A DNA stretch of 64,000 nt from a virus. Shown one piece after another: positions 32,478-58,424 of the stretch (the first letter of the stretch is position 1; each line of letters opens with the position of its first letter). The position numbers and the translations under genes were made by a program. The notes beneath the pieces are model-generated. The model was not told where the DNA came from, did not search any database, and was given only the letters and a program-made list of their open reading frames with translations. The stretch spans positions 55,500 through 119,499 of the IMG/VR virus record IMGVR_UViG_3300024346_000016, one strand, 5' to 3'.

Positions 32478-33110
32478 ATGATACTAAGCGCAAGACAAAA
32501 CGGATTCCTAATAAGTTTCCCAGATACTTTCTTCTCTAAGCAGATAAGTAAGAAATACGAGAAATATTATAATAGCCTTATTATGCCGTATGAGACTATT
32601 GAAGATTTCATGGCATCGACTATTCAGTCAGTTACATTTAATGGCTTTACTGTGCCAATGGTAAGTCAAGTAAGACCTCTTGGTAAAATACAAGAGTTTC
32701 ATAGTGCAAAGCCAATTGCTGAAATGTTTGAACGTAAATTTACAATCAAATTTAAGTTAAGTGATGCCTACCTAAATTATTTTATCTTTTTAGATAATGC
32801 GCTTAACTATTTAGATCAAGGTAACCTAGAACCAACTAACTTACGTCGATCTCTAAATGGTGTTGGTAAACCATTTGTGCAAGATCCTCAGGGTATTACA
32901 ATGGATCCAATCAGATTAACTCTCTTAAATAATGAAGGTTATGCAGTTTCGTCGATTGTATTTAATCACCCAATTCTATCGGGCATGACTAATATTTCAC
33001 TGTCATATAATGAAAATGCTCCAAAATTTAATACATTTGAAGTATCATTCCAATTCTATAACTTTGATATTGCCCTAGATTTTGGTGAGGGTCTTAACTA
33101 TATTGGTTAA
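32478..33110 (+). CDS. Putative tail tube or baseplate-tube protein
   Basis: A 210-residue protein. The C-terminus (NTFEVSFQFYNFDIAL) resembles the closing strands of tail-tube/tube-initiator folds, and the beginning is a compact alpha/beta domain with a charged helix (SKQISKKYEKYY). The family was not recognised with certainty. It is a single-gene leaderless late unit. It ends tail-to-tail with the nucleotidyltransferase, whose stop codon overlaps its own at a TTAA. Confidence 0.45.
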   Translation: MILSARQNGFLISFPDTFFSKQISKKYEKYYNSLIMPYETIEDFMASTIQSVTFNGFTVPMVSQVRPLGKIQEFHSAKPIAEMFERKFTIKFKLSDAYLNYFIFLDNALNYLDQGNLEPTNLRRSLNGVGKPFVQDPQGITMDPIRLTLLNNEGYAVSSIVFNHPILSGMTNISLSYNENAPKFNTFEVSFQFYNFDIALDFGEGLNYIG

Positions 33111-33910
33111 ATATAGGAATCTAGTGTAACACTAGTTGGCAAAGGTAATCCTTCTTCTTTTAATTTCTCAGTGTAGGCCACGATAATCTCCTGTTTATTT
33201 GGATAGAGCGGAGATTTTATAAAAAGATCAAAAGTTTTCTTAAAGGTATTCCATTCGCTAAATGGTAGGGGCTGACCAAAAATTGCTTTAGCCATATCTT
33301 CTGCTGACTCAGCTATTAATTGACGATCCATAATTTTATAGTTAACCTTTTTCATCTCTTTAACAATCTTATAGAGACCGTCTGGTCTTAACATATAGCC
33401 TGTAAATTTAGAAGGGCTAGCTGGGTCGCCTTCAATATCTTCCTTTCGCGAATCTAATACAGTAAATAGGAAATAGACACGGTGTTTAGTTGTATCTGGA
33501 TCCTCTTCAATATTTTTATAGAAAATATCAGTTGCCTCTTTATTTGCAGTTTGAGGTCTTACGAAAATATCAATTTGTACTGGCTCGTGACCAGTTGGTG
33601 TAAAATTAGTTGATACAATATTAAAACCATAGAATGCTTTTGCATCAATTCCTTGAGCTTTACATAGCTCTACAATTTTAGGAAGTTCCAAATCTGTGTA
33701 TACCAGGCAATCAATATCGCCTGAAATAGGTTTCTGTTTCCAGCTGCCAATCGGTTCACCAGGCTGGCTTCCGAGTATTCCCTGGACTACCTTATCGTTA
33801 AACTCTGCAACGATTCTTTGGATATCTTCGCGCTTAACTGAAACTGTTTCAGGAAAGGCATTACCTCCTTCATTAAGGACAAATTTTCGGTATTCTAATA
33901 GGTATTTCAT
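33107..33910 (-). CDS. Nucleotidyltransferase-fold protein with capsid-targeting-like start
   Basis: The start at 33910 (MKYLLEYRKFVLNE) gives 267 residues; it overlaps the upstream stop as TAATG, so an upstream TTG is less likely. The core matches the pol-beta nucleotidyltransferase fold: a Gly-Ser pair about residue 40 (GSWKQ), SGDIDCLVY with two Asp residues, and a third acidic strand PVQIDIFV. The substrate is unknown. The first 14 residues end in L-N-E and resemble T4 internal-protein capsid-targeting sequences, as in the proteins at 53114, 55647, 57067 and 57942. It is cotranscribed with the gene on its right. Confidence 0.65.
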   Translation of the reverse strand: MKYLLEYRKFVLNEGGNAFPETVSVKREDIQRIVAEFNDKVVQGILGSQPGEPIGSWKQKPISGDIDCLVYTDLELPKIVELCKAQGIDAKAFYGFNIVSTNFTPTGHEPVQIDIFVRPQTANKEATDIFYKNIEEDPDTTKHRVYFLFTVLDSRKEDIEGDPASPSKFTGYMLRPDGLYKIVKEMKKVNYKIMDRQLIAESAEDMAKAIFGQPLPFSEWNTFKKTFDLFIKSPLYPNKQEIIVAYTEKLKEEGLPLPTSVTLDSYI

Positions 33911-34672: not shown

Positions 34673-34692
34673 CGCCAAGAAAAATACTGGAG

Positions 34693-35155
34693 TGGAGCTG
34701 ACGGGAGTCGAACCCGTGTCCAATGCGGTTACTTCAATGAATTCGTTTACAGGCTTAGTCCATTTTTCTAAAAAGACAAAATATAAAGTTTGATGTATGT
34801 AGGAACCAAACTTTCAAACAACCCGGTCTCGAAGTTATTTAGTAGAGCTCCGACCTGTTACTCCAACTCTTTCGCCCCCTGTATAGATCGTCCACGATCA
34901 GATGCTCAAGGTCAGCCTTGACTGTTAAGGGAGCCACCTGGATTTGCTTTCACTTCTTCTTAAAGTCCCATGAGTGATACGGGAGCGATTAGGCAGCTAC
35001 TGCTAAATCTGCACCTACGAAAGACATTGCGTCTTCGAAAGTCCAAGTTGACTTATTGTCAGTTATTGTTTGTATAGGTTATTAAAGAGTTTCCAATACT
35101 AACTCCGCCTGCATTCAAAGAACTACGACCGCTTGTCAAATGCCAAAACAGCCCC
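34693..35155 (-). ncRNA. ssrA: Transfer-messenger RNA (tmRNA)
   Basis: On the minus strand the RNA begins GGGGCTG (35155-35149), which pairs with CAGCTCC (34700-34694) as a 7-bp acceptor stem. The third pair is G-U, the alanine identity element. The T arm ACGGGTTCGACTCCCGT precedes the 3' end. The discriminator A is at 34693 and no CCA is encoded. An open tag frame runs from about 35060 to the TAA at 34991-34989. It would encode about 23 residues starting DNKSTWTF and ending GADLAVAA, the ending type recognised by ClpXP-like proteases. tmRNA rescues stalled ribosomes; phage-encoded copies are rare but known. The 463-base length is above average. The resume codon is inferred from the frame. 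Confidence 0.9.
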
Positions 35156-51106: not shown

Positions 51107-51925
51107 ATGGCAAAACAGAAAACAGCAGATGTATTGATTAGTTTAGAAGAAGCTAGAGAACGCGGACTCTTAATCCATACCAAAAAAGACACACCCTATT
51201 TCAATTACAGTTTATTCGTAAGATCAGAAGATGAAGTTAAATACAATATTAATCAAAACATCAGTAAAACTGCTACAGGCGGGGAATACTTTAGTCCACT
51301 ATTTAGAACCGATTGGAATACTAATGGTCATCAATTTCAACTAGAAAATTTAGATCAGGAAGACGTTTGGTTAGATGCGGGTGGTCATATCGGCATTTTT
51401 GCAACTAGACTCCTAACACAGTTTCCTCGTATCAAGAAGGTTTTGTCATATGAGCCTTTCCATAATAATATTGAGTTTGCTGAACTTAATCTTGGAGAAA
51501 ACGGCGTAGCTGATCGATGCGAAATGATTGAAGCTGCACTTGTATCAGACGATGATACAAAAAATGTAGATTTCTTTTTAGCATGGGATTCAGGTAAACA
51601 CTCGCTGCTTCCAGTTAGAGGCCGTACTCAAGTAACAGTTCCAGCTAAAAACTTTAAAGATGCTCTTAAAGAGGCAACTTGCCTAAAAATGGATGTTGAA
51701 GGCTTAGAATATGACTTGATCAAATCTGTAGAGGATTGGTCAAATATCAGAATCGCAATTATTGAATACCACTTCCACTATCGTAACTTGTCTAAAGGCC
51801 GAGTTGAAAAATTTAATGAAATCCTAGATATTTTTAAAGCCAACTTTGATGACATTTATGTATGTCCAAACGTTGAAAACACTAAAACCTGGATTACTCA
51901 CTTTGCTGCAGTAAAGAGAGGCTAA
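51107..51925 (+). CDS. FkbM-family methyltransferase
   Basis: A 272-residue SAM-dependent methyltransferase. Motif I is residues 87-99 (VWLDAGGHIGIFA); LKMDVEGLEYDLI is the hallmark of FkbM methyltransferases. These O-methylate sugars or other small molecules; the acceptor here is unknown. It has its own promoter and terminator and sits next to a glycosyltransferase-like gene, so the two may act on one glycan. It is isolated from the virion operons by terminators, as an accessory cassette. Confidence 0.8.
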   Translation: MAKQKTADVLISLEEARERGLLIHTKKDTPYFNYSLFVRSEDEVKYNINQNISKTATGGEYFSPLFRTDWNTNGHQFQLENLDQEDVWLDAGGHIGIFATRLLTQFPRIKKVLSYEPFHNNIEFAELNLGENGVADRCEMIEAALVSDDDTKNVDFFLAWDSGKHSLLPVRGRTQVTVPAKNFKDALKEATCLKMDVEGLEYDLIKSVEDWSNIRIAIIEYHFHYRNLSKGRVEKFNEILDIFKANFDDIYVCPNVENTKTWITHFAAVKRG

Positions 51926-51947
51926 TCTAAATTAACTTTATATTAAG

Positions 51948-51972
51948 GCCGAGTATTTACTCGGCTTTTTTT
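51948..51972 (+). terminator. Intrinsic terminator
   Basis: A 7-bp stem GCCGAGT/ACTCGGC with an ATTT loop and seven T residues closes the methyltransferase gene. Confidence 0.9.
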
Positions 51973-51995
51973 GTAATCCTATGATGAAACTATTG

Positions 51996-52001
51996 TATAA
52001 T
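51996..52001 (+). promoter_or_regulatory. GTATAAT-type -10 element giving a leaderless start
   Basis: Reads TATAAT, with a possible TTGTAA -35 at 51971-51976. Counting 7 bases from its end puts the transcript start on the A of the ATG at 52008. Confidence 0.55.
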
Positions 52002-52007
52002 AAAGAT

Positions 52008-53087
52008 ATGAACACGCCAGCTGCACTATATGCATATTTTGGATATCTTGGAGATTTTTCAACTGATATACCAGGACATACTTTTTACCAAATTGGTTTA
52101 ATAGATCAATTGTGTAAGCATCACCAGATTGATAAAGTAGATTTCTATTCATACTTATCACACGATCAAGTTGGCGCAACTCAAAAGTCTCCAATTTGGC
52201 CAACCAGTCCAGTTACCCCAGTATTTGAAAAGTTTACTAAAGAAAGAATCAGATCCTATAATTTAGGATTTGCTAAAGTCGCTGAAAATATTGAAAAGGG
52301 CAGATACGATAAAATTTTCCTAAAAGCCAGATTTAGAAATCTTTCAACCTTAACTAAACAGTTAACTGATGCAAGGCAGTTTGAACTTCTTATTAAAGCA
52401 GCAATTCAAACTGGTCAAGCCAATAAAGTTGTAATATTAGATACGGATCTTTCGCTTGATCCAGAATTTGTTGATTTTTGTAAATCTCAAGGAATAACAT
52501 TTGAAATTCCATCAATAGACTATCCAAATGTATCAAAGGATTTTATTAAAGCCTGTGAAAAGGTATGGTTAGACGAAACTGACAGATTTGAAAGAAATGA
52601 CAAAGTATTTTATTATGGAAATATTTCATTTGGTAATTATAAAGTAGGTCATGCTAAAAATCCAATTGTGGTTGATGCAATAAAGACGTCTGCTGATTTT
52701 AAATCATTTACTGGTAAAAAATACGATGTTGCAATTGCTGGTAAACTTGATTCGGCCCTAACTAGTGATTTTCAAGAAAAGAATATTAAATTAATAAAGA
52801 GAACTGACCGATCTGATATTTGGAATGAATATGCTAGTTCAGCAATAAGTCTAAATATCTCAAAGGATCTATATCTAGAGCGAGGATTTTATCCAGCCAG
52901 GGTATACGAAAGCCTTATTTTTGGTGCAATACCAGTATCTTATATGGACTATCGTATCCATGAAGCTCTTGGATTTACAGATTTACATAAGTTAGAAGAA
53001 ATTTTAGCATTTTTTAAAGATTCTAGCCCTTCTGACCGAGCTGCCATCTATTCTAAATGTATTTCAAACCTGTTTCCGTGTAGATAA
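52008..53087 (+). CDS. Glycosyltransferase-like protein
   Basis: A 359-residue protein. The ATG at 52008 is chosen because the -10 element overlaps the region before it; an earlier ATG at 51981 would lie upstream of the transcript. The C-terminal third has ARVYESLIFGAIPVSY, a pattern seen in nucleotide-sugar glycosyltransferases, and a RGFYPARV lead-in. The donor and acceptor are unknown. It is the second gene of the 51-53 kb accessory pair. Its stop is inside the next late box. Confidence 0.55.
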   Translation: MNTPAALYAYFGYLGDFSTDIPGHTFYQIGLIDQLCKHHQIDKVDFYSYLSHDQVGATQKSPIWPTSPVTPVFEKFTKERIRSYNLGFAKVAENIEKGRYDKIFLKARFRNLSTLTKQLTDARQFELLIKAAIQTGQANKVVILDTDLSLDPEFVDFCKSQGITFEIPSIDYPNVSKDFIKACEKVWLDETDRFERNDKVFYYGNISFGNYKVGHAKNPIVVDAIKTSADFKSFTGKKYDVAIAGKLDSALTSDFQEKNIKLIKRTDRSDIWNEYASSAISLNISKDLYLERGFYPARVYESLIFGAIPVSYMDYRIHEALGFTDLHKLEEILAFFKDSSPSDRAAIYSKCISNLFPCR

Positions 53088-53113: not shown

Positions 53114-55642
53114 ATGGCATCAAAATATATTTTAAGTAGAGATCAATTTGTAATTAACGAATCTGATAACTCTAATCCACTATTTGACTTCTTAAATGAA
53201 GTTGGTCCAGACCTAATGCAAATGCTGGACACAATTAAACCAGTCTTGCCTGAATCAGTATCAGATGAATTTATTGAAAATTCGCAAAGATACGATGCTG
53301 CTCTTAGCCAGTCTGGATTTTCTGAAAATTCTAAATTAGAGCATATTTTATATGCAATGGGAACTACCGGAGTTACCCTATTTACAGAATCTAATTTTAA
53401 CCTTGATTCAGTAATTGAACATTACTATTCAGTTAACGAGGACTTTTTTGATACACTTAGATCAATTTGGAACGCCTTAACCGAAAACGGCTCGCCACTA
53501 GGAATCGTACACTTATTATTAGATATTATTGGATTTATTCCAGCTTCATATTTTGGCTTTCCTATTGATATTGTTGCAGATGGACTAAACGCCGTAATTT
53601 ACCTGCTAGAAGGTCAATATGGATCAGCATTAATTAGTGTTATTGCAGCAGCTCTACCAGGAATTGGTGATGCAGCCAAAGCATTAAAATTAGCAAAGGG
53701 CTTTAAGAAAATAAACAATTTGGCTGAAGTTGCATTTAAAACAGGTAAAGCTGACCCAGGTATTGTTAAGGCTCTTGCCAAAGAAGATCCTGCAACACTT
53801 GCTAAATTCTTAAATATATTTTCTGGAGCAAAACCAGTTATTACATTTTTTATAAACCTTGCAAAAGGAGTTGGTCGAGGAATTGAAGCACTATTAAGAT
53901 CATGGCCAGTAAGTATGCTATTCGGCGGACTTGGTAAAAAGCTTGGAAAATGGCTAGACACGGCAGTTACACCAATTACCAAAAATCTAGATTCTGCAAT
54001 TGATGATATAGCAGCTCTTACAGCTAAGGGCTCAGACGATATTACCTCTGCAATCAAAGCTGGCGATGCAACAAAGGTTGCAGATACCGGTACCGGTTTA
54101 ATTACTAAATTAGGCGATGAATTAACTGCAGCAAAAGCCGCAGGTAATATGGCAGAAGTTAAACGTATTGAAGGACTTCTTCAAACTCGTATCGGAAAAG
54201 GCTTACCTGGAGCAGGGCGCTTTGTTAAAGGCGGCAGGCTAATTGATGTTATAAATGCAAATCTTAAAATTAGTGATGATCTTCTTAAAACCGGAGGAAA
54301 GAATCTAGACGAATTCTTAGAAAAAGGTTGGGATGAATATATTTCTGTATGGAAAGAACTTAAACAGCTAGATGGAGTTCCTCTTACAGCAAGCGACCTT
54401 AGTCAACTTGAAAAGCTTAAATCTGCTTGGATGGAAGGTCGTAAAGCTGAGGCGCTATTTGCTGGAATGAAAGGTATTAGCGATTTGCCAGCGGATGATC
54501 TAATTAGATTAACTGGTAATGCTGCTGAAATATCAACTAAAAAAGGTGCAAACTTTAGTGCTAGATTAGTTGCAGAGATTTCAGATGATCCAGCCAAATT
54601 AAGTAAGTTTTTTAATGGAATTTTATCTAACCCTGCGGCACTAGCCAAATTAGAAGAAGCTGGCCCTGGTGTAGTTGGAATGTATAGACTCTTTGCAAAA
54701 AATCCAGAAGTATATGTTGATATTGCAAAAGCTGGATCTAGTGCAATTAAAAGGTTTGACGATTTAGCAAAAGTTGGAGGAACCTGGTCACAAGCTCTTA
54801 GAAAAAGTAGAGTTATGCGAAATAAACTAATTATTGCTAAAAACGTAATTGGTGCTCCACTTAGATGTCCAATTGCAGAGTTAGGACAAGGAAATATGGG
54901 AGGTATTGAGGCATTAGGTACGTTAGGTTTAAAAAAGGAATCTACTAAATTTATCCTAAGTCGATCTCAGTTTTTGTTAGAGGCAGAAGATGCTGCACCT
55001 ACTACGGCAGCAGATGAAATATCACAGGAATTAGAAAAAGCAAAAAGAGGTAATGCAATAGTAGGTCCTCTTAGCTATGTTGATATTTGTCAAAGTCACG
55101 TAAATAAAGCAATAGACGAACTTGCACTAACTGCAACCATTCCTCCAGCTGGTAGCTCACTAGTTAAAAACGGCCCAAAACAAGATTTTGTTGCAGCCGG
55201 AGTTAGTAGTGAAGCTACTATTGCTAATCAAGAAGCAGTCGATGCTACCCTAAAACAAATGGGAATAGATTCTCCAATTTCAGATGCAGGTATGATGACC
55301 GAATTACCAGCCGATGCCACTATTCAAGAAGTAATTTCAGAAAGAGTTGGAACCGACTGGCAACACGGCGGCCTATGGTATATGTTAGCTGCGGTAATGA
55401 CACAGGACATGGAATATGAATCAATTAAATCTAAACTTAAGAGTGCCCTTAAAGAGTATGAAAATAATTATAAGCGTACAGCCGGTAATAAAGCAACAAC
55501 TGGCTCAATTAGTTTTTATCCATCTCCTGGAGAAGCACAATTAATCAAATCTGAATTTGAAAAACTGGATGCCGATCCATCGTATAGACCAAATTTCTTT
55601 GGAGGTTCGGTGACTTCTAGCGACTTACTTAAAATGTTTTAA
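53114..55642 (+). CDS. Internal (capsid-targeted) protein with membrane-like segment
   Basis: An 842-residue protein. The N-terminus MASKYILSRDQFVINE ends in I-N-E at residue 16, like a T4 capsid-targeting sequence with a prohead-protease site. Residues 127-200 are hydrophobic with GFIPASYF, GSALISVIAAALPGIGD and AAKALKLAKG, a pattern seen before the toxin region of polymorphic toxins and in translocated proteins. Residues 610-625 (TKFILSRSQFLLE) repeat the N-terminal motif, so a second cleavage may release a 219-residue C-terminal piece. The rest is helical. It is the first gene of a late operon. The packaged and injected role is inferred. Confidence 0.6.
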   Translation: MASKYILSRDQFVINESDNSNPLFDFLNEVGPDLMQMLDTIKPVLPESVSDEFIENSQRYDAALSQSGFSENSKLEHILYAMGTTGVTLFTESNFNLDSVIEHYYSVNEDFFDTLRSIWNALTENGSPLGIVHLLLDIIGFIPASYFGFPIDIVADGLNAVIYLLEGQYGSALISVIAAALPGIGDAAKALKLAKGFKKINNLAEVAFKTGKADPGIVKALAKEDPATLAKFLNIFSGAKPVITFFINLAKGVGRGIEALLRSWPVSMLFGGLGKKLGKWLDTAVTPITKNLDSAIDDIAALTAKGSDDITSAIKAGDATKVADTGTGLITKLGDELTAAKAAGNMAEVKRIEGLLQTRIGKGLPGAGRFVKGGRLIDVINANLKISDDLLKTGGKNLDEFLEKGWDEYISVWKELKQLDGVPLTASDLSQLEKLKSAWMEGRKAEALFAGMKGISDLPADDLIRLTGNAAEISTKKGANFSARLVAEISDDPAKLSKFFNGILSNPAALAKLEEAGPGVVGMYRLFAKNPEVYVDIAKAGSSAIKRFDDLAKVGGTWSQALRKSRVMRNKLIIAKNVIGAPLRCPIAELGQGNMGGIEALGTLGLKKESTKFILSRSQFLLEAEDAAPTTAADEISQELEKAKRGNAIVGPLSYVDICQSHVNKAIDELALTATIPPAGSSLVKNGPKQDFVAAGVSSEATIANQEAVDATLKQMGIDSPISDAGMMTELPADATIQEVISERVGTDWQHGGLWYMLAAVMTQDMEYESIKSKLKSALKEYENNYKRTAGNKATTGSISFYPSPGEAQLIKSEFEKLDADPSYRPNFFGGSVTSSDLLKMF

Positions 55643-55646
55643 TATA

Positions 55647-57044
55647 ATGAAAACCATAAAAAACATAACTGCTCTATTTGAGCAAACTGCTACTGAAACT
55701 GAAACTAAGTTTAAGCTGCTTGCGCAGCCTATCACTTTACCAGCTGGCGAAGGTAGCATTAGAATAAAATGGCAATACCAATTTAGCTGGCCAGCTAAAA
55801 ATCCACTATTGGGAGATGTTAAGGAGTTAATTAATACAATTAATAATGCTAAGGATGGTGATGCTCAGCAGGTTCTAACTGCAATTAAAGGATCTGACAA
55901 AACGCATGAAGTAGGTATTATTAGAGCTAATGTATCAACTCAAAAAAATAGAATAATTGGAAAAGATCTAGGAGAATTTACAGGATGGATCTATCTTTTT
56001 TATCCCGATACAATTAATACTCAAGCTATTCCAGCAAATCAAAAAATAGCCTCTGGTATTGATGCCAGACTGACCTATTTAATGGGTGCAGATGGCTCAT
56101 TTCAAAAGTATTTTAAGGAGCCAGGCACAGGTAAACCAACAGTCGACGCTAAGAAAACCGATGTTGATGTAAAACCCGCTACAGTATTTACGGCAGCTTC
56201 ATTTTTAGATGGAGACGGACCGGCATACAAATGGTTTTATAATGATATTGGTCTGTATTCAACTTACATAAAGAAAGTCACTGATAAGATTGGAAGGGCA
56301 AGGGTTGCAGTTACAACAAGCGGTGATATTGTTCCAATATTTTGGAAATTTATTTCTAAACTACCAGATGGAATGGCTAAATCTGAGCCAGGCGATTCGG
56401 ATCAGCACAAAATTTATTCGGAACCGCTGCAGACTGCTTTAATAAATCTGTTTGCCAAAGCTGCTAAATTTGACCCGTCAAATTTTTCTAAAGTCAACGT
56501 TAATGAATTAACACGAGATCTTTACTCTAAAATGGCCCATGCTGTAGTGGTATTAGGATTAAACGCTGGAAAAATTAAGTTAAATTCACTAGAATTTATG
56601 AAAGATCCAGAAAGTGCGGAATATTATGCTCCATTCATAATCTCGGATTTAGCATCCGGTACACTTGTTGATCCGACTGCAGCCGCTGCGACAACCGCGT
56701 CTGGATTTGATGGAACTGCTATAACAACTGAAGATCAAGTGTTAAAGATTTTTGCAGGATTAGTCGTATCTGACAAGACACTTTGGGGAACCCCAGATGT
56801 TTCTACAATCGATAAAGTTAAAACTCACTTTAAAACCAATATGAATAAAACTAGTGCAGGATCTTATGAAAATATGTTTGCTGCTATTAAAAAATTCTCA
56901 GGATTTAAACACGGTCAAACGTATAGTGGATCAAAAGGATTTAAGGATTTTGAATCTGTGGTAAAGGGAACAGCTACTGGAAAATTTGATGATGGGTTGC
57001 TTACAATTATTAAATCTGCCATAACAGCCTCTCCAATTAAATAA
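55647..57044 (+). CDS. Hypothetical protein with capsid-targeting-like start
   Basis: A 465-residue protein starting MKTIKNITALFE; the L-F-E at residues 10-12 matches the [L/I]-x-E cleavage rule. The remainder is a beta-rich region (about 20-130), an Ala/Lys-rich middle and a helical C-terminus. The family was not recognised. It lies 4 bases after the internal-protein gene. The start sequence, shared in kind with four other proteins, suggests it is packaged inside the head. Confidence 0.55.
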   Translation: MKTIKNITALFEQTATETETKFKLLAQPITLPAGEGSIRIKWQYQFSWPAKNPLLGDVKELINTINNAKDGDAQQVLTAIKGSDKTHEVGIIRANVSTQKNRIIGKDLGEFTGWIYLFYPDTINTQAIPANQKIASGIDARLTYLMGADGSFQKYFKEPGTGKPTVDAKKTDVDVKPATVFTAASFLDGDGPAYKWFYNDIGLYSTYIKKVTDKIGRARVAVTTSGDIVPIFWKFISKLPDGMAKSEPGDSDQHKIYSEPLQTALINLFAKAAKFDPSNFSKVNVNELTRDLYSKMAHAVVVLGLNAGKIKLNSLEFMKDPESAEYYAPFIISDLASGTLVDPTAAAATTASGFDGTAITTEDQVLKIFAGLVVSDKTLWGTPDVSTIDKVKTHFKTNMNKTSAGSYENMFAAIKKFSGFKHGQTYSGSKGFKDFESVVKGTATGKFDDGLLTIIKSAITASPIK

Positions 57045-57047
57045 ATA
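57040..57047 (+). promoter_or_regulatory. T4-late-like promoter box overlapping a stop codon
   Basis: Reads AATAAATA; the stop TAA at 57042-57044 is inside it. The ATG at 57067 is 19 bases downstream. Confidence 0.6.
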
Positions 57048-57066
57048 ATTAAAATAAATTAAAAAA

Positions 57067-57747
57067 ATGAGAAATATTAAAAAATTTTCAGACTTTATAG
57101 TCGAACAAACCGGAAGATTTGGACAAGCTTCTTCCTCAAGCTCATCTGGTCAAAAAAGCAGTACATCTGCTCCAAAAAAGGAAGAACCAAAAACTCCGCC
57201 TGCTGCTACAACCATTACGCAAGCAGAGTTTGATAAAGTTGTTGCAGAATTAGATGGATTTGCACTATTTTTTGCAAATAAAGCACAAACCCTAGCTAAA
57301 TACGATGAAACCTCAATGTCAGATTGTGATGGTAATTTACTTGCATGGAGCGATGACGAAGCCTGCTATTGGAAAATTATTTGGCAAAACTGGGGAGCGG
57401 AAGGATGCCCTGCTGCATACACTAAATTTGCCACAAAGGTTACTGAATTTACTGCAAACCTTGCTAAATATCCAAATCAAGATGCTGCTAAATTGGTTCA
57501 AACTAGAGCTTCTCATAATTTGCACGAAGCAAATAGAATGAATCAAAAGGATAACAATACTATAACTGCTCCAGCTGGAAAACGTTCAGACACTTTACGT
57601 GGAATGGTTATGAAGGTAATTAATAACGATGATCATAACTTTAGATGGACTATGTATTATACTACTGCAACGGTTACTCCATTTGGAGGAGGCGCGCCAT
57701 CTACCGTTTCGCCAACTTCAACTTATAAAGTAGATTGTGATTTTTAA
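57067..57747 (+). CDS. Hypothetical protein with capsid-targeting-like start
   Basis: A 226-residue protein starting MRNIKKFSDFIVEQ; I-V-E at residues 11-13 fits the cleavage rule. A Ser-rich linker follows (SSSSSSGQKSS), then a domain with several Trp and Cys residues (about 70-130) that was not recognised. It is followed 3 bases later by bS21. A packaged role is inferred from the start sequence and its neighbours. Confidence 0.55.
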   Translation: MRNIKKFSDFIVEQTGRFGQASSSSSSGQKSSTSAPKKEEPKTPPAATTITQAEFDKVVAELDGFALFFANKAQTLAKYDETSMSDCDGNLLAWSDDEACYWKIIWQNWGAEGCPAAYTKFATKVTEFTANLAKYPNQDAAKLVQTRASHNLHEANRMNQKDNNTITAPAGKRSDTLRGMVMKVINNDDHNFRWTMYYTTATVTPFGGGAPSTVSPTSTYKVDCDF

Positions 57748-57750
57748 TTT

Positions 57751-57945
57751 ATGCTAATAATTGATATAAGAAATTCAGAGTCTCTGGAAAGAGCACTCAA
57801 ACAATTAAAAAGAAAGGTCATTGATACTAAACAGTTACAAAATTTGCGTGATCGTAAAGAATTTGTAAAACCTAGTGTTAAGCGAAGATCTGAAATTAAT
57901 AAAGCAAAGTACATTCAAAAAAAGTGGGATGCAGACAATAAATGA
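57751..57945 (+). CDS. rpsU: Ribosomal protein bS21
   Basis: A 64-residue basic protein of full bS21 length and shape: an SLERALKQLKRKV helix, an LRDRKEF turn and a KPSVKRRSEINKAKYI C-terminal helix, in the style of Bacteroidota bS21. In Bacteroidota bS21 is part of the pocket that hides the anti-Shine-Dalgarno end of 16S rRNA. A phage copy may replace the host protein on ribosomes. No Shine-Dalgarno precedes it. Its stop (TGA) overlaps the NUDIX start as ATGA, so the two are coupled. Phage bS21 genes are known from large phages. Confidence 0.9.
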   Translation: MLIIDIRNSESLERALKQLKRKVIDTKQLQNLRDRKEFVKPSVKRRSEINKAKYIQKKWDADNK

Positions 57946-58424
57946 TTTTTACATTCACAGATTATTTAGCAGAGAGCGAAAAGCAGCTTGAAATTCGAGC
58001 AGCTGGCTTGGCTATTATCTGGGAAGGCAAACTTTTATTAATTCATCCTTCTGATGCAAGTTGGAAGAACCAACCGTTTGGCATTCCTAAAGGTGGAATC
58101 GAAGATGGTGAAGATCTTTTAACTTGCGCAATTCGTGAGACAAGGGAAGAGACCGGGATTACGGTAGATCCAGAACTAATTGATAAAAATGAGAAATATT
58201 TTGTATTTTACCGTCGCGGTATTCCTCACAGTCGCTGCGCTTATTTTGACGTACGCATTGAGAGCCTTGAACAAATTGGCCTTGCTTCGCCGAAGGTACC
58301 TAAAGAACAACTACAGGCCGAGGAGGTAGATTGGGCTGGATTTGTCCCAATACAAGAGGCAATTACTAAATTATCGCGCTCTCAGCAGATAATTGCTCAA
58401 CGATTGATTGAAACTATCGAATAG
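57942..58424 (+). CDS. NUDIX hydrolase with capsid-targeting-like start
   Basis: A 160-residue NUDIX protein with an intact box at residues 51-73 (GGIEDGEDLLTCAIRETREETGI has the Gly, three Glu and RE-x-x-EE pattern). NUDIX enzymes cut nucleoside diphosphates linked to another group; the substrate is not evident. The first residues MIFTFTDYLAE end in L-A-E at 9-11, the same type of start as the packaged-protein candidates. It overlaps bS21 by ATGA. Such a short extension before the NUDIX fold is consistent with a removable targeting peptide. Confidence 0.8.
   Translation: MIFTFTDYLAESEKQLEIRAAGLAIIWEGKLLLIHPSDASWKNQPFGIPKGGIEDGEDLLTCAIRETREETGITVDPELIDKNEKYFVFYRRGIPHSRCAYFDVRIESLEQIGLASPKVPKEQLQAEEVDWAGFVPIQEAITKLSRSQQIIAQRLIETIE

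Follow-up and report, generated by a model that had tools for sequence, protein, structure and literature searches.

What are the short, similar N-termini on a group of otherwise dissimilar proteins in this viral DNA for? The window analysed here is a 64,000-base stretch, bases 55,500-119,499 of the 119,499-base IMG/VR virus record IMGVR_UViG_3300024346_000016, and the genes in question are four on the plus strand, beginning at 53114, 55647, 57067 and 57942, and one on the minus strand (33910-33107). A sequence-only reading had proposed that all five products begin with capsid-targeting sequences like those of the internal proteins (IPs) of phage T4, which direct a protein into the prohead and are cut off after [L/I]-x-E. 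Having followed these N-termini through related genomes, we consider it very probable that they are T4-type capsid-targeting propeptides, which would be docked and cut in the prohead and would bring their cargo into the head and, plausibly, into the host.

The tripeptide lies where that reading had placed it in all five translations: I14-N-E16 in the 53114 product (MASKYILSRDQFVINE), L10-F-E12 in 55647 (MKTIKNITALFE), I11-V-E13 in 57067 (MRNIKKFSDFIVE), L9-A-E11 in 57942 (MIFTFTDYLAE), and L12-N-E14 in the minus-strand product (MKYLLEYRKFVLNE). The description of these starts as basic and hydrophobic fits four of the five, as that of 57942 is not basic. Of 60 window genes, 11 have a bare [L/I]xE between residues 7 and 16, where internal 10-mers lead one to expect 4.2, and this modest excess makes the tripeptide too weak a criterion, so we rejected it as proof of a tag. 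The tag-like start of the 46865 protein (TEYCLLEY) was also set aside because its homologues conserve a fixed Cys within [TS][DE]YC[LIV]LEY.

Stronger evidence comes from a longer motif in which the N-termini of relatives abound, for example, MKIKRFNQFINE, MKNQVKQFSEFINE, MKLKRFTQFVNE, and MKHIKLFEQFIAE. We compared the window's own record (G000) with its closest long relative (G001, IMGVR_UViG_3300044700_000691, 216,815 bases), whose terminase is 100% identical, a 142-kb relative (G003), and two genomes that are more distantly related, G005 (271 kb) and G006 (253 kb); G001, G005 and G006 were examined as whole genomes. We built a profile from G005 and G006 alone and evaluated it on genomes kept out of the training, with internal windows from the same proteins as background; it learned approximately [IL]-K-x-[FY]-x-x-[FYW]-[ILV]-x-E. 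In G001, 28 N-termini exceeded the 99th percentile of this profile vs. 2.06 expected. With the threshold at the 99.5th percentile of each genome's own internal windows, 24 of 206 N-termini passed in G001 (1.0 expected), 24 of 252 in G005, 28 of 257 in G006, 13 of 115 in G003, and 4 of 92 in the window's own record. None did so in the negative controls crAss001, MaF61, and PTm1. A null anchored on internal methionines concurred, with 18, 25, and 31 N-termini in G001, G005, and G006 vs. about 0.5.

The same profile recovered the known T4 signal blind. T4 was absent from the training, and its ipII, ipIII, and ipI ranked 1, 2, and 3 of 190 T4 proteins (names confirmed), while the T4 gp23 cut site, FGSFLTE65, ranked 3 of 44,027 internal windows. 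The strongest profile columns are an aromatic at -6, an aromatic at -3, an aliphatic at -2, and Glu at 0, and these correspond to residues 4, 7, 8, and 10 of IPIII (MKTYQEFIAE). Amber-suppressor genetics of IPIII assigned residues 4 and 7 to targeting and residues 8 and 10 to processing (PMC9026906). Together with the protease and capsid partners described below, this supports the proposed likeness to T4 capsid targeting.

A search of related phages for the same start on unrelated domains, which had been suggested as a check, found it on a large scale: 115 tagged proteins in five genomes fall into 71 unrelated body clusters (a few false calls included), and mean column identity of the bodies is 5% over 70 representatives. 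Within the window, the products of 57067 and 57942 fall in the top 0.1% of internal windows, fit the motif in full, and are predicted to bear canonical tags. The ungapped profile made no call for 53114, 55647, or 33107. When a one-residue insertion was allowed, 53114 (score 15.6) and 33107 (score 8.4) were both called. We regard 55647 and 33107 as putative conserved variants of the tag and 53114 as the weakest of the five predicted tags. The sequence-only reading had missed the genome-wide scale of the motif, a second, internal copy in the 53114 protein, and further tagged genes in the window's own record (L001:692-1045 and L002:2528-2950).

The partners that such a system would need are also present in the relatives. 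In G001, G005, and G006, the capsid gene is preceded by a gene for a scaffold-fused Peptidase_S77 domain (PF03420), which scores 46.9 bits (E=2.9e-12) in G001, 31.2 in G005, and 33.0 in G006, against a curated cut-off of 27. The centre of the scaffold consists of tandem 14-residue repeats, such as IKYTEYLAENLDKG and IQYTEYVAEKSEQG, with 5-9 matching repeats in each of 14 distinct homologues. Their core, [YF]xx[YFH][LIV]xE, is the core of the tag, and 10 of 631 scaffold windows exceed the genome's 99.9th percentile for it (0.63 expected). The capsid protein of G001 is of the gp23 type (Gp23, PF07068, E=9e-48) and has a conserved [I/V]NE site before [A/S] near residue 53. This site lacks the aromatic pair, so cutting does not seem to require aromatics. 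Docking is then the likelier reason why tags and scaffold repeats have aromatics in common, and this step is our inference. Just after the capsid gene comes a small lysine-rich gene, which is tagged in 11 of 11 distinct sequences. A prohead protease, which the sequence-only reading had hoped to locate elsewhere in the genome, was found in relatives together with its probable cut sites. A search of the window's own record for an S77 protease returned none because that record ends inside the major capsid gene (capsid C-terminus, L001:1-461).

These observations lead us to propose that the tag, roughly MK-x-[IL]-K-x-[FY]-x-x-[FYW]-[ILV]-x-E, would use its aromatic pair to dock a protein onto the prohead core. 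It probably mimics one scaffold repeat, given that the 14-residue repeats of the core scaffold bear the same [YF]xx[YFH][LIV]xE core. The scaffold-fused S77 protease would then cut after Glu in tags, scaffold repeats, and the capsid propeptide alike, so that the cargo would be released within the head as the scaffold makes room for DNA, and the cargo would exit with the DNA at infection. By analogy with T4, cutting of the tags after Glu is likely. Packaging is likely as well because the T4 IPs were found blind, unrelated bodies are tagged, S77 and gp23-type partners are present, and tags persist where cargo exchanges. Injection into the host is plausible on the same analogy, and it is from T4 that we infer docking, ejection, any anti-host role, and the terms "injected" and "effector."

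The small excess of the bare tripeptide (11 vs. 4.2) might still be taken to mean that L/I-x-E, a common tripeptide, recurs by chance or composition. This explanation is already refuted by the enrichment tests, as the full motif stands ~20- to 60-fold above the internal-window and methionine-anchored nulls in independent genomes and finds the T4 internal proteins blind; we give it practically no weight. We think it just as improbable that a nucleotide-level signal at gene starts, acting in translation initiation, happens to encode similar residues. Shine-Dalgarno sites are mostly absent from the gene starts of these phages, so some other start signal is conceivable. But between homologues, codon choice differs for 29% of identical tag residues (41% in the bodies), indicating that the constraint acts on protein; moreover, the spacing from tag to start codon varies, and the second copy lies inside the 53114 protein.

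Two further alternatives accept a protein signal but give it another role. As a short amphipathic N-terminal segment, the tag could be an address for the host membrane, the tail or baseplate, or a replication compartment. This is very unlikely, because the motif agrees at each position with the head signal defined by experiment in T4 and resembles the repeats of the head scaffold, and PTm1, MaF61, and crAss001 show no excess. Tagged proteins could instead be core or scaffold helpers that are needed for head assembly alone and are afterwards degraded or lost from the prohead, with no delivery to the host. T4 scaffold proteins are likewise cut at L/I-x-E, and the small lysine-rich protein, tagged in all relatives, has a structural look. 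Yet among the tagged bodies are many enzymes or binding domains, including Nudix, T4-lysozyme-like, CHAP, VanY, 2H phosphoesterase, nucleotidyltransferase-like, HAD, methyltransferase, DeoC, and leucine-rich-repeat proteins, and the tagged bodies at one locus vary from phage to phage. We therefore hold the assembly-helper explanation to be improbable, if less so than another address.

Several points weigh against the capsid-targeting explanation that we prefer. The profile makes some false calls, among them the start of a PAS kinase in locus L350 and a DnaQ-like exonuclease in G006. The resemblance between tag and scaffold may partly reflect a common protease preference, and the protease of the window's phage is taken from relatives, above all G001 with its identical terminase. 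Virion proteomics was found for none of these phages. Conservation of the first residues, on which the sequence-only reading had staked its proposal, fails for 53114 alone, as distant homologues keep an M[KQ]YV.SA.E[YF]F start but not the L/I-x-E. The cut site is also missing in 3 of 10 homologues of the Nudix protein.

Tagged genes are many, and the block at 53.1-58.4 kb forms an exchangeable cargo island among them. It lies between a glycosyltransferase-like gene and a DNA ligase, flanks that are common to five genomes, while the tagged proteins between them differ. The window carries tagged proteins of 465 and 226 amino acids and G001 of 466 and 201. In G003, the island holds a 556-residue distant homologue of the window's 465-residue protein (MKNYTSLNQLILE) and a 536-residue protein (MKKIKSISILLE), and in G005 and G006, there are again other tagged proteins; more loci extend this list. 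Megablast of the island against cultured phages gave no match. Together with the glycosyltransferase-like gene, an FkbM-type methyltransferase gene flanks the island in all relatives seen (window positions 51107-53087, plus strand). Between two of the tagged genes lies an untagged homologue of ribosomal protein bS21 (57751-57945, plus strand; phrog_21469, E=5e-6).

The first island gene (53114-55642, plus strand) is conserved but fast-evolving and encodes an 842-residue protein with no Pfam or Protein Data Bank (PDB) profile match of note. It is mostly alpha-helical in a low-confidence model whose predicted local distance difference test (pLDDT) value of 46 makes it unusable. Its tag-like N-terminus (53114-53161, plus strand) has one extra residue and is followed by Ser. 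The internal copy, KFILSRSQFLLE before Ala, occupies residues 612-623 (54947-54982, plus strand), scores 36 vs. a maximum of 29 among 2000 shuffles, and persists as YEFLAEA in a homologue with 37% overall identity. Its existence and retention suggest internal processing, and a cut there would set free about 219 residues at the C-terminal end. Mid-protein tags were also seen in G001 (165764-166483, residue 99; SRVLTFSSFLNEAKK) and G005 (106055-106708, residue 114; GKIKRFEQFVNENE), as if two fused units were released by cutting. At residues 131-190 or so, the 53114 protein has a conserved hydrophobic segment (LLLDIIGFIPASYFGFPIDIVADGLNAVIYLL...LPGIGDAAK), which we take to recall the membrane-active region of polymorphic toxins.

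The second gene (55647-57044, plus strand) encodes the 465-residue predicted cargo protein, which belongs to no known family and whose AlphaFold model (pLDDT 42) is unusable. Its tag variant (55647-55682, plus strand), followed by Gln, is conserved in homologues, with the site surviving at 18-33% body identity as MKKFHTLKGLFEQ, MKKYTNLSQLITEQ, and MKNYTSLNQLILEAE. The third (57067-57747, plus strand) is translated as a 226-residue predicted cargo protein with a low-complexity linker, and its tag (57067-57105, plus strand), also before Gln, has a profile score of 14.2 (p=0.0008) and a G001 copy reading MKNIKRFSDFLVEQ. The fourth (57942-58424, plus strand) encodes a Nudix hydrolase (PF00293, E=4e-15, 56.5 bits vs. 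a curated cut-off of 21.1), likewise predicted to be cargo, with its tag at 57942-57974 (plus strand) before Ser (score 12.8, p=0.0008). The aromatics at T4 positions 4 and 7 are kept in 10 of 10 Nudix homologues and the cut site in 7 of 10, a pattern that mirrors the separability of targeting and cutting in T4.

The 267-residue product of the minus-strand gene (33107-33910), also predicted to be cargo, may have a nucleotidyltransferase signature of the Pol-beta type (GSWKQKPISGDIDCLVY...VQIDIF). It had no Pfam match, and the PDB search, in which DNA polymerase beta was the best match at only E=0.18, did not confirm the signature; for this family and those of 53114 and 55647, PDB profile searches gave nothing convincing. 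Its tag variant (33869-33910, minus strand), before Gly, is kept as FVLNE, FILSE, and FTITE, and homologues read KTFILSE and KTFTITE, each before Gly. A transfer-messenger RNA gene with the tag peptide APVSLMGL* was predicted by ARAGORN at 34692-35155 on the minus strand.

Recognised bodies of tagged proteins in the five genomes include T4-lysozyme-like, CHAP, amidase, and VanY peptidoglycan hydrolases as well as Nudix, HAD, M78, and 2H phosphoesterase proteins. The 2H phosphoesterase (L103:14961-15512 in G005, and also L197 in G007; MLKSFSQFVTGLFE...) resembles Acb1, which counters the cyclic-oligonucleotide-based antiphage signalling system, at E=4e-6, below the curated cut-off, and is a candidate packaged counter-defence protein. 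One tagged protein that looked annexin-like was reinterpreted once a T4-lysozyme-like domain was recognised C-terminal to that region. Protease and scaffold are fused in huge phages as well, including LR756501 (735 kb) and LR756500 (462 kb). Over the initial 400 kb, LR756501 has 42 of 392 N-termini above the 99.5th percentile and LR756500 has 21 of 427, where about 2 would be expected, and a profile-free Y..F..E pattern occurs at 21 N-termini of LR756500 vs. 0.44 expected. The tagged cargo of these two phages includes a methyltransferase, DeoC-like and radical-SAM proteins, and six leucine-rich-repeat proteins, the last with strong capsid-targeting-like tags (LR756500 loci L329, L338, L344, and L345). 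A histidine kinase match was discarded since what looked like its "tag" belongs to the beginning of a PAS domain, and PPK2 and PNK3P matches among 48 huge-phage proteins were assigned to no individual protein and are not counted as cargo.

We lean slightly toward a broader proposal, in which scaffold mimicry would be a general way of loading the heads of T4-like jumbo and huge phages. A ~13-residue copy of one scaffold repeat could load any protein, and tens of enzymes and binding proteins, such as lysozymes, Nudix proteins, the Acb1-like 2H phosphoesterase, leucine-rich-repeat proteins, and methyltransferases, would enter the host with the DNA, forming an interchangeable arsenal deployed pre-emptively. 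The majority of genes in jumbo and huge phages lack a known function, and the tag singles out tens per genome as probable head cargo. Such genes become candidates for action in the first minutes of infection; in T4, Ip1-3 block type IV restriction enzymes, with different enzymes inhibited by each (PMC12373910). The proposed copying of a scaffold repeat offers a concrete reason for the tag to work, and the tag predicts cut N-termini.

Our literature search, in which subscription journals were poorly covered, found neither this tag nor its scale reported for these phages or for huge phages. In freshwater bS21 phages that are related and have predicted Bacteroidetes hosts, the protease-scaffold fusion already bears the annotation "prohead core scaffolding and protease" (PMC9723584); the word "internal" is absent from the main text of that paper. 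Two papers describe many head-packaged proteins in SPN3US and other giant phages that are cut by a prohead protease and ejected (PMC5694885, PMC10052503). Head packaging is similar there, but the phage lineage is another one. Sphingomonas phage PAU (NC_019521) comes closer, as it has an S77 protease and at least 14 proteins that begin MKT[LI][ST]xL[YF]E[AS], one shared tag ending in L-[YF]-E. Many of the PAU genes cluster around the protease and capsid genes, for example, at 100,248-113,735. Because the PAU tag differs in sequence and its protease is not fused to a scaffold, PAU is apparently a parallel version of tagging.

The nearest comparison remains T4. Its small, non-homologous proteins IPI, IPII, and IPIII likewise start with propeptides of 10-19 residues ending in [L/I]-x-E, aromatic residues stand at IPIII positions 4 and 7, and T4 too has an S77 protease along with a capsid protein of the gp23 type. 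Across T-even relatives, at least 10 internal proteins are known, recognised by their leader (PMC12373910). As with T4 gp21 and gp22, a Peptidase_S77 domain adjoins the gp23-type capsid gene, and the scaffold is rich in L/I-x-E sites. Unlike in T4, protease and scaffold form a single protein of 600-660 amino acids whose central tandem repeats resemble the tag, and the motif has an added upstream [IL]K and prefers [ILV]-N-E before [S/A/N]. Finally, where T4 has three internal proteins, these phages have about 20-40 tagged proteins per genome, many with enzyme domains, and the system is a greatly expanded new variant of T4 capsid targeting.

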